This document shows positions 6,267 to 9,905 of a DNA stretch of 64,000 nucleotides, one piece after another. The position numbers were made by a program, and so were the translations under genes. The stretch comes from Thermococcus aggregans (GTDB lineage: Archaea > Methanobacteriota_B > Thermococci > Thermococcales > Thermococcaceae). A model generated the notes under the pieces. That model saw nothing but the letters and a program-made list of their open reading frames with translations. It was not told where the DNA came from and did not search any database. Position 1 is the first letter of the stretch; every line of letters begins with the position of its first letter. The stretch covers positions 744,001 to 808,000 of the forward strand of contig NZ_CP099582.1 in assembly GCF_024022995.1 (NCBI RefSeq), given 5' to 3'.

Positions 6267-8780
6267 TCAGAGAGTGAAGTAATCAACTTCCTTACGCTCC
6301 CCTCTTGCGGCACCTTTTCTACTCTCCTCAAATTGCTTGTAGTAGTCAATCATGTATCTAGTTATGCTTGGCTTAACTTTTTTCAGTGCTTCTTCGAAAT
6401 CTTTCCTTGAAACGCGAAGTTTCTCAAGGAATTCTTCAGCCTGCTCCTCCACGAGCTCCCTGGGAGTCTTAGAAACTGCCCCCCTAAGGGCAATTAAAGC
6501 GGCTTCTCTTACTACGGCTTCGATATCAGCACCGCTGTAGCCCTCGGTTTTCTTTGCAAGTTCCTCTAAGTCAACATCATCTGCCAACGGAACTCTCCTT
6601 GTGTGGACTTTGAAAATCTCAAGCCTTGCCTTTTCATCCGGCGCTGGAACCAAGATAAGCCTGTCGAACCTGCCAGGCCTAAGCAACGCCGGGTCGAGTA
6701 TATCAGGCCTGTTCGTGGCAGCAATAACTACCACACCGCTGTTCTCCTCAATACCATCCATCTCAGTCAAAAGCTGATTTAGCAAAGTCTCCATGTAGTG
6801 GGCTCCCTCGTGAACCCCCCTTGCAGGGGCTATTGCGTCTATTTCGTCAATGAAGATAACCGTGGGAGCAGCTTGCCTTGCCTTTCTGAAAATCTCTCTA
6901 ATCCTCTTCTCGCTTTCTCCGACCCACTTGCTAAGGACTTCCGGTCCGCGAATGCCTATGAAGTTAGCCTCACTCTCGTTGGCAACTGCTTTAGCAAGCA
7001 AAGTCTTACCTGTTCCAGGAGGTCCATAGAGGAGAATCCCCTTAGGTGGAGTAATGCCAAGCCTCTGGAAAGCTTTTGGATATTTGAGAGGCCATTCTAC
7101 GGCTTCTCTTAGTTCTTGCTTGACTTCCTCAAGACCTCCAATGTCCTCCCACCTAACATTCGGAACCTCCAAGAGGACTTCCCTAAGAGCCGAAGGCTCA
7201 ATCATCTTCAAAGCCTCGTAAAAGTCATCTTTTGTGACCTTAAGCTCTTGAAGCACTTCAGGTGGAATTCTATCTTCTTCGGGGTTTATTTTACCTTCAG
7301 TTATAAGCCTCCTTAACACCACCATAGCGGCTTCTCTTGCCAGTGCTGCCAAATCAGCCCCAACGAATCCGTGAGTCTTCTCCGCGATCTCCTCGAGGAG
7401 GAGGTCAATCAAACGGTGCTTTACTTCTTTGTACACTTCTCCGTCCTCTTTCAGAATAGCCTTGATTTCGTTTTCATCCTTTGCCTTCTCGACTTTTTTG
7501 ATAATCTCATCAAGCTTTTCTCTGTCAAAGGAGGATTTCCTCTTCAGCTCCTTTAATACCCTCAAAACGCTCTTCTTGTCGTAATCTGGCTCGATTGGCA
7601 TTCCTCTTGTGTGAATTTGGAGTATTTCCTTCCTTCCCTGCTTGTCTGGAACGCCGACCTCAATTTCTCTATCGAATCTGCCAGGCCTTCTCAAAGCTGG
7701 ATCAAGGGCATCAGGCCTGTTTGTAGCGGCGATAACTATAACCTTCCCTCTGCCCTTCAGTCCATCCATAAGTGTTAAAAGCTGGGAAACTACTCTCTTT
7801 TCAACTTCTCCCGTAACTTCTTCCCTCTTTGGAGCTATTGCATCGATCTCGTCAATGAAGATTATGCTTGGGGCGTTTTCCTCCGCCTCCTTAAAGATCT
7901 CCCTTAACCTCTCTTCGCTTTCACCATAGTACTTGCTCATTATCTCCGGCCCGTTGATAGCTATGAAATGGGCATTTGCCTCGTTAGCAACTGCTTTAGC
8001 GAGGAGTGTCTTACCAGTTCCCGGTGGTCCATAAAGCAGAACACCCTTTGGCGGCTCAATACCAAGGCGCTCAAAGAGCTCCGGATGCTTTAATGGGAGC
8101 TCCACCATTTCGCGAATCTTTTGAACGGCATCCTTGAGACCACCGATGTCCTCGTAGGTAACCTCGGGTACTTTCTCCTCTCTCACTTCTACTGCCTGTG
8201 GAAGAACTTCTATTTCGGTGTTGTAGGTTATCTGAACGATTCCCTTTGGGATTGTGTTCACAACAATGAACTTAAGCTCGCCAAATCCTAAGGGAAGGCT
8301 TTCAAAGAGCCCTCTAAACAGCTCATCGAATGGAGACCCAGTATAAAACTCCGTTTCTCTGCCGCTTGCCACTATTAGGTCTCCTTTAACAACCGGCCTC
8401 CCAAGGAGATTCCTTTTCACAAGCTCCCCTGGAATTTGGAGATAAACCCCTCTTTGTGCAGGTGCTAAAACGACCCTTTTGGCCTCTTGAGCCTCTGCTT
8501 TTCTTACAGTGACGTAATCACCTATGCTAACTCCAGCGTTTCTCCTGATGTAACCGTCCATCCTTATTATGTCAAGTCCCCTGTCATCGGGATGAGCATT
8601 TTCAACTATTGCTGCGGTCTTACGCTCTCCTTCAAGCTCCACTATATCTCCTGGCTGAACACCGAGCTGCCTTTGATATTTTCTATCAAACCTAACTATT
8701 CCCCTACCAACGTCTCGCTTTAATGCCTCAGCAACCCTCAACTTTATTTCCTTTTTAGTCTCCTCTTTTCCAAAAATCAT
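6267..8780 (-). CDS. cdc48: CDC48/VCP-type AAA ATPase
   Basis: Hexameric AAA+ unfoldase that remodels protein complexes and can feed unfolded substrates to the proteasome. The 837 aa show the CDC48 N-domain (about 1-200), then two AAA modules, each with GPPGTGKT Walker A, an [10 protein letters not shown] or [10 protein letters not shown] Walker B and an SRH region with [11 protein letters not shown] or [12 protein letters not shown] highly charged insertion of about 60 residues after PIEPDYDK in module one (rich in Lys/Glu, likely helical) is longer than in CDC48 of about 750 aa. The tail ends YFTL without a clear HbYX motif. The ATG overlaps the stop of the upstream RNase H-fold gene by 4 bp, giving translational coupling. 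Confidence 0.96.
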
Positions 8781-9550
8781 TTTTTACCACCCTTTTTCTT
8801 TCTATGAAGCTCAATTGCCTCTTCTAGAGTTAAATTACCCTTAGCAACCTCCCTCGCGAGCTTTGATGAAATTGTTATTTTACCATTGCTAAGCTCTCGG
8901 CTGCGAGTTTTTATGTATTCGATCTCACCCTTTGTAGGCTCGCCGGCATGGATAAGGTCTTTCAGCTTGACCTCTCTCCCATCTCTTAAAGCTATATTTA
9001 TCGAGGCAACTATGTCTTGTATTTGGGAAACCTCTATCCCGCCAACCTTTGGGGTTGTGCCTCTTTCATTCACGAGGATAATAGGGAACTCCTCACCAAG
9101 TACTGAGGCGAGAGTTTTAAGCATTAACACCCTGTGTCTCTTTGCCCCGTGCCCTATCTTAATCTTTGCCTTTGGATACTTCTCCAAAAGCTCCAATATT
9201 GTATCAACGTCCTTAGGGCTTTTGAGGTGATAGACCTCAATTACTCTATTGTCCGCAACAACGGCCACACCAGGCCTCTCCCCGGGGTCTATGGCAATGT
9301 ATACGTTCTTAAACCTTTTTCTCCCCTCAAGCCTCGCCAGTAATTCATCTATAAAGTTTTCATTTACAACCGCTATCTTTACTGGGAAGTTAATTTTATC
9401 ATACTCCTCTACACTCGTTAGAACAACTTCAACATCAAAAGGGATTTTATCGGTAAGCCTAAGGCTGTAAAAAGGGATCTTGTACTCGCGCAGGACCTTT
9501 GTTGCGATATAGTAAACCCTTGCGTTCTCAGTAACAACTGCAACTCTCAT
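8777..9550 (-). CDS. Predicted RNase H-fold (RuvC/YqgF-like) protein
   Basis: Conserved archaeal protein of 257 aa. From about residue 83 it has an RNase H-like fold: strand [15 protein letters not shown] with Asp88, then VNERGTT with Glu162 and IQDIVAS with Asp179, matching the D-E-D layout of RuvC/YqgF nucleases. The N-terminal 80 residues look like a Rossmann-type alpha/beta half and the C-terminus is short, basic and helical. A nuclease or resolvase-like role is inferred from the fold only. The start is ATG 9550; there is no ribosome site but TTTTTAATATT lies about 25 nt upstream, which suggests a leaderless mRNA. It is the promoter-proximal gene of the cdc48 operon. Confidence 0.75.
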
Positions 9551-9691
9551 GATTGATAAATCAAGGGAGAATATTAAAAACATTAGGGAAAACAAAAAGA
9601 AGAATAAAACAGCCCAAATTTAAGAACTAAGCGATAAGAGCCAGGAAATTTTATGATAAAGTTTATAAACTCCAAATGCGGAGATAAAACT

Positions 9692-9706
9692 GCCCCTAGA
9701 AGGGGC
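9692..9706 (+). other. Small hairpin in the leader of the Glu/Trp protein gene
   Basis: GCCCC-TAGAA-GGGGC, a 5-bp GC stem with a 5-nt loop, ends directly before the GGGGGTGA ribosome site. With the TATA-like GTTTATAAAC at 9661-9670 it defines a short structured leader. Whether it modulates translation is unknown. Confidence 0.5.
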
Positions 9707-9719
9707 GGGGGTGATATAG

Positions 9720-9905
9720 GTGCAGCCTCCCAAGAAGAAAAAGATTGAAGATTATGAGGAGGAAGAGGAGCTCTTTGAAGAGGAGGAATGGGAAGAAGAT
9801 TGGGATGAGGAATGGAATGAAGAGGAGTGGGAAGAGGAGGATTGGGAGGAAGATTTTGAAGAAGAGTGGGATGAAGACTGGGACGAAGAGGAAGAAGAAT
9901 GGTGA
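9720..9905 (+). CDS. Ultra-acidic, tryptophan-rich small protein
   Basis: Unrecognised 61-aa protein. After a basic N-terminus (MQPPKKKK) it is almost entirely Glu/Asp (31 Glu, 8 Asp) broken by aromatics at regular 4-5 residue steps: Trp24, 28, 32, 37, 42, Phe46, Trp50 and 54, plus a terminal Trp61. On a helix this spacing would make an aromatic stripe on a strongly negative rod. Evidence that it is a real gene: a GTTTATAAAC TATA box, a GGGGGTGA ribosome site 6 nt before the GTG start, and its own stop before the moeA promoter. Possible roles are a nucleic-acid mimic or a binder of a basic protein, both speculative. A low-complexity artefact is the alternative. Confidence 0.65.
   Translation: MQPPKKKKIEDYEEEEELFEEEEWEEDWDEEWNEEEWEEEDWEEDFEEEWDEDWDEEEEEW

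Follow-up and report, generated by a model that had tools for sequence, protein, structure and literature searches.

A small acidic-tryptophan protein retained across the Thermococcaceae, a candidate mask for basic nucleic-acid-binding surfaces

The acidic-tryptophan ORF lying before moeA in the window is a genuine gene, near-universal in the Thermococcaceae, with a conserved start, head, tryptophans and promoter. The gene family is under purifying selection at the protein level and is constrained for charge and Trp. Judged by sequence, the protein belongs to an orphan family without a match in the libraries searched. We infer, with a probability of about 0.45, that it is a disordered polyanion and that its Trp 'stickers' cover the basic surface with which another protein binds nucleic acid. 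The window is the whole 64-kb stretch of DNA that was analysed (G000:C1:744001-808000), and all feature positions are given in its coordinates:

9720-9905, plus strand: ORF of the 61-aa acidic-tryptophan protein, with a GTG start and a TGA stop (from the sequence and homologues).
9726-9743, plus strand: PPKKKK head, encoded by CCTCCC and four Lys codons, conserved in 21 homologues.
9744-9902, plus strand: acidic tail with regularly spaced aromatics and Trp as the last residue (from the spacing analysis and the C-terminal Trp counts).
9662-9669, plus strand: TATA box, TTTATAAA inside AAAGTTTATAAACT (from the sequence and the family promoter count).
9690-9708, plus strand: leader hairpin with the core GCCCC-TAGAA-GGGGC at 9692-9706 (from the sequence, folding and similar leaders elsewhere).
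9707-9715, plus strand: Shine-Dalgarno-like GGGGGTGAT (from the sequence).

The composition of the encoded protein (31 E, 8 D, 8 W, 4 K, 2 P, 2 F and 1 Y) bore out an earlier sequence-only reading, which had described a strongly acidic chain behind a short basic head: 39 of the 61 residues are acidic and the net charge is about -35. The GTG at 9720 aligns with the ATG that opens the MQPP start of homologues; the usual N-terminus among these is M-Q/E/D-P-P-K-K-K-K, and the translation start is thereby fixed. Among 21 aligned members Pro3 and Pro4 are invariant and Lys5-7 nearly so. Family proteins are 41 to 72 aa long. A composition count gave 46% E, 14% D and 10% W, with G, A, S, T, R and C almost absent, and in 90 of 99 unique proteins the tail contains no K, R or H. 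Trp is the C-terminal residue in 82 of the 106 copies overall and in 59 of the 62 at the moeA locus. MoeA is encoded downstream on the plus strand; the upstream neighbours, on the minus strand, are a 257-aa protein and then Cdc48. The gene for the 257-aa protein (8780-9550, minus strand) is that which the sequence-only reading had called an RNase H-fold gene; its product has no Pfam match at 1e-5. It is found in 91 of the 94 family genomes, in three of which one in-frame TAG lies inside the matched stretch.

Copies of the acidic-tryptophan gene were located by sequence, profile and pattern searches across 94 Thermococcaceae genomes. This resulted in 106 copies, with a recognisable copy in 89 of the 94 genomes and in all 74 of those with at least 90% completeness and at most 5% contamination; the genomes without one (G010, G046, G051, G052 and G062) are all 73-86% complete. 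Counted among the 106 are L088 of G015, which has no start codon, L211 of G091, a fragment at a contig end, and the divergent copies of G042 and G068, the one in G068 being the only copy of that genome. Outside the count stand G029:C1:45241, which has two in-frame TGA codons, a second G056 match not separately listed by the protein-based census, and G078:C1:975052, a 27-position profile match where no acidic ORF was found. An unrelated acidic ORF, L212, was removed before counting. There, at about 1235756 of G092:C1, an acidic/Trp stretch opens a 63-aa ORF that lies among several clustered short genes, possibly a mobile element. The script placed a start in 99 of the 106 copies, choosing in G080 (L006) an in-frame ATG upstream of MQPP, and in five of the other seven a Met is plainly visible ahead of the head.

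For the locus comparison we used the 91 genomes that hold the gene for the 257-aa protein and took from each the sequence upstream of that gene. In 62 of these genomes a short ORF of this composition stands at this locus, 61 being divergent acidic ORFs identified by the script and one the G015 frame without a start codon. The sequence-only reading would have been undermined by absence from this locus in relatives or by indels that break the frame at a neutral rate, neither of which occurred; the frame stays open. In the G015 copy the head and tail are in frame although the start codon is absent, and an open copy in home B is also present in that genome. Of the 29 examined genomes without a moeA-locus copy, 26 hold one elsewhere. 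The 106 copies occupy at least five homes: home A, before moeA, which is the locus of the window (62 copies); home B, beside genes for an MFS transporter and a PLP enzyme (25 copies); home C, flanked by a calcineurin-like phosphoesterase and a PHO4 transporter (7 copies); home D, flanked by a pterin-binding-domain gene and a NIP7-like gene (8 copies, all in genus g3); and home E, near GINS (1 copy). These labels are based on matches to neighbour genes, and the three copies without such a match were left unassigned; one of them, in G088, adjoins a phosphoesterase-like gene as in home C. Counted per genome, 47 had A only, 14 A and B, 10 B only, 8 D only, 4 C only and 6 other arrangements. Since genomes that lose the copy of one home mostly keep another elsewhere, as a trans-acting function predicts, the product acts in trans, and since the gene sits in at least five homes, its function is independent of the neighbouring genes. 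The gene is kept in all well-sequenced Thermococcaceae genomes examined, at whichever home, and is likely to be important.

Copies of home B differ at the C-terminus, where only 6 of the 25 end in W; a pocket for a C-terminal Trp can therefore not be general. After the head, the home B members of genus g4 (e.g. L165:1291-1587 and L239:1348-1581) share a motif, EFEPLDAVEEAYE, that is more fixed, and most of them lack the C-terminal Trp; this suggests a diverged second role.

Selection was measured in nearest-neighbour pairs of PP-headed copies only (73 of 106), leaving aside pairs that were identical or had a pS above 0.6; one pair, G001/G059, spans different homes. The 23 pairs (1129 codons) showed a pS of 0.258, a pN of 0.033 and a dN/dS of 0.107. 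Differences at codon positions 1, 2 and 3 were 0.024, 0.021 and 0.138, with change concentrated at third positions. Trp was retained at 123 of the 128 sites where either member of a pair has it, and because 43 of the 83 replacements were Glu/Asp swaps, charge is what is kept. The same reading had offered low-complexity coding as the dull explanation; near-universal retention together with a dN/dS of about 0.11 rejects it. We consider it hardly credible that the frame is open by chance in GA-rich DNA, or that a DNA or RNA element is conserved here instead of a protein. The DNA is indeed purine-rich and of low complexity, and the leader contains a hairpin, but the changes are dominated by third positions, the start and head are conserved, and copies at other loci share both head and tail. 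For practical purposes the dN/dS value ruled out a chance ORF.

Searches of Pfam, NCBIfam and PHROGs matched none of 21 members in any of the three at E<=0.1, and Pfam gave no match for 13 members at E<=1. The statement in the sequence-only reading that no family was recognised was thus upheld, and none of the three libraries models the acidic-tryptophan protein. Profile A1, run on 115 genomes of the phylum, matched 60, all of them Thermococcaceae and none outside the family, with the caveat that the HMMER composition correction may hide weaker members; presence in the rest of the phylum was rejected on this result. The only search of archaea beyond the phylum of the window was a head-pattern scan of genome_contigs (84,980 species by its description), which covers members with this head and would overlook any with a different one; it returned 31 loci. 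All 13 in Thermococcaceae carry the acid/Trp tail and none of the 18 others do, and we rejected a broad prokaryotic family with this head. A viral origin was likewise rejected, none of 69 IMG/VR head matches having an acidic tail. A literature search of open-access articles found nothing on this family or on the letters MQPPKKKK, and nothing combining archaeal histone, histone chaperone, Thermococcus kodakarensis and acidic.

The TATA box, hairpin and ribosome site named in the sequence-only reading are all present upstream of the ORF. A TATA-like box was detected between -110 and -20 in 86 of 98 copies, as against 20% of shuffled upstream regions, and the boxes fall into two main classes, near -55 and near -38. 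From the usual TATA-to-start spacing, the transcript start is expected at about 9690, and the leader hairpin probably lies close to the 5' terminus of the transcript. Folding of the leader of this copy gave a z of -1.36, and the five leaders folded had modest scores (z from +0.42 to -2.83). A GCCC...GGG hairpin directly before the ribosome site is frequent in the -55 TATA class, which includes the window copy, in homes A and B alike, and its pattern has a single match within the 64-kb window. A simple word list detected a Shine-Dalgarno-like word in 56 of 98 copies. Taken as sequence signals, the promoter, leader and ribosome site support expression of the gene. The GC-rich hairpin adjoining the ribosome site is common to copies of home A and home B (L165, L169, L238, L239 and other B copies); the leader and promoter were therefore probably duplicated together with the gene. 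The Pro3-Pro4 codons (9726-9731) read CCT-CCN in 56 of 88 PP-headed copies, and CCT makes up 15% of the Pro codons of moeA in the same family. Being complementary, CCUCC and the ribosome-binding site pair in the folds of some leaders; self-masking of the start site by the head codons is possible.

The gaps between successive aromatics after the head of the 61-aa protein are 7, 5, 4, 4, 5, 5, 4, 4, 4 and 7, so that the sequence-only description of an aromatic every 4-5 residues is true of most gaps. Among 99 unique proteins 82% of the gaps were of 3-6 residues, as against 39% in shuffles, and the gap variance was 3.9, as against 17.1 ± 1.3. Since these proteins are related sequences, we repeated the analysis with 17 members below 75% identity and found the spacing regular: gaps of 3-6 residues made up 70% (37% in shuffles) and the variance was 6.4 (22.5 in shuffles), with 0 of 2000 shuffles as extreme. 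The power of the aromatic periodicity peaked at 4.5-5.1 residues; for the 17 members, 17 of 2000 shuffles were as high at period 5 and 6 of 2000 at period 4.5. At 3.6 the power for all proteins was 0.11, compared with 0.151 ± 0.014 in shuffles, and for the 17 representatives 459 of 2000 shuffles were as low. Aromatics placed every 4-5 residues do not lie on one face of an alpha-helix, and the acidic helix with regular Trp proposed in the sequence-only reading was left unsupported. From the conserved spacing, the aromatics may be anchors set along an extended chain.

AlphaFold2 modelled the 60-aa G077 homologue as one helix over residues 6-58 (mean pLDDT 75.9, pTM 0.38), which would suit a helical scaffold, either a single alpha-helix or a coiled coil with an aromatic stripe. 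E-rich chains often yield such single-helix models, and we give this one little weight. Hydrophobic residues, examined as aromatics only, did not recur at the period of 3.5-3.6 of an amphipathic helix or coiled coil; 3.6 was unenriched and 4.5-5.1 enriched. A scaffold of this kind is thus quite improbable, and a helix stripe was rejected because the aromatic repeat is off the helical period. Given the AlphaFold2 helix, disorder of the chain stays a proposal.

A chain made mostly of E, D, W and F/L/V behind a PPKKKK head leaves few other jobs than masking, which is why we favour that function; as a class it is probably the best reading, fits the composition, and would work in the manner of prothymosin, DSS1 and the acidic histone chaperones, with no homology claimed. 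The guess of the sequence-only reading, mimicry of nucleic acid or shielding of a basic protein, is of this class and is plausible. On this view most of the polyanionic protein would be unfolded, its short basic head followed by Trp/Phe 'stickers' at intervals of 4-6 residues. Acting in trans, it would attach reversibly to an abundant protein, on the positively charged surface with which that protein binds nucleic acid, with carboxylates replacing phosphates and Trp anchoring through hydrophobic or cation-pi contacts. Free basic proteins would thereby be kept soluble, or be assisted on and off DNA or RNA, and the head might touch nucleic acid or fold back onto the tail. The first candidate partner is archaeal histone; RPA, Alba or ribosomal proteins would follow. 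Thermococcaceae generally have histones, so that co-occurrence cannot discriminate. Histones are the natural first partner since, according to a 2021 paper (PMC7990501), archaea had yielded no identified homologue of the histone chaperones or remodelers of eukaryotes. RPA would be the second candidate, by analogy with DSS1.

A protein of this composition could instead bind cations or act as a scaffold. Polyamines are abundant in hyperthermophiles, and charge in the family is more conserved than sequence, as would be expected of a cation or polyamine buffer or of a general anti-aggregation polyanion without a dedicated partner. The regular spacing, the conserved Trp and the PP and Lys head would need a further reason, and we hold such a buffer to be distinctly unlikely. 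Within the masking reading, the protein might be a lineage-specific, near-universal histone (or RPA) chaperone of a new and minimal kind: an acid/Trp chain of 45-70 residues, headed by a basic stretch, it would load basic DNA-binding proteins and unload them again. We regard this as unlikely. If it did shield histones or RPA, a small, heat-stable and genetically tractable factor for archaeal chromatin or recombination would be at hand, and free-histone management in histone-bearing archaea would become testable in T. kodakarensis. Such a chaperone would fill a function for which, in the text available of PMC7990501, no archaeal counterpart of the eukaryotic factors is identified. The family also offers a natural test of the conservation of charge and regular aromatics instead of exact sequence.

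Of the known systems compared, DSS1/SEM1, a subunit of the 26S proteasome and a partner of BRCA2 and RPA, is similarly small, very acidic, aromatic-dotted and partner-driven; the Thermococcaceae protein has in addition a PPKKKK head, regular spacing and, in most copies, a C-terminal Trp. A DSS1-like single-strand mimic would bind OB-fold proteins (RPA, recombination mediators) and aid ssDNA release. The architecture class is the same, and SEM1/DSS1 occurs among the weak PDB matches of the family profile (E 2.4-2.9), but the match is low-complexity and not significant, three unrelated proteins score better, and Pfam, which presumably includes a DSS1/SEM1 model, matched none of the members at the thresholds above. 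With nothing better than the PDB SEM1 match at E 2.4, DSS1 was dropped as the family identity and kept as an analogue. DSS1 is described as small and highly acidic, and has been proposed as a DNA mimic on RPA, in the available part of one paper (PMC6954417), but mimicry by DSS1 itself is disputed in that of a review (PMC8881015), and we consider this mode of action doubtful for the Thermococcaceae protein.

The acidic histone chaperone motifs of the Spt16, APLF and Anp32e type share an acidic stretch with aromatic anchors and cover the DNA-binding face of the histone dimer. An acidic chain with placed aromatic anchors is also what was found here, the likeness being one of composition and spacing; those motifs are segments of larger proteins, whereas ours is a 61-aa protein. 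Prothymosin alpha is by description likewise small and extremely anionic, has a short patch of basic residues, and binds a basic protein without folding; it lacks the aromatics present in the Thermococcaceae protein. The Thermococcales inhibitor of PCNA, TIP, is described as a 64-aa protein restricted to Thermococcales that has one putative PIP motif and part of a PH-like domain (PMC4929162). Both proteins are small and lineage-restricted, and the acidic-tryptophan protein is set apart from TIP, by description, by its head and acidic tail.
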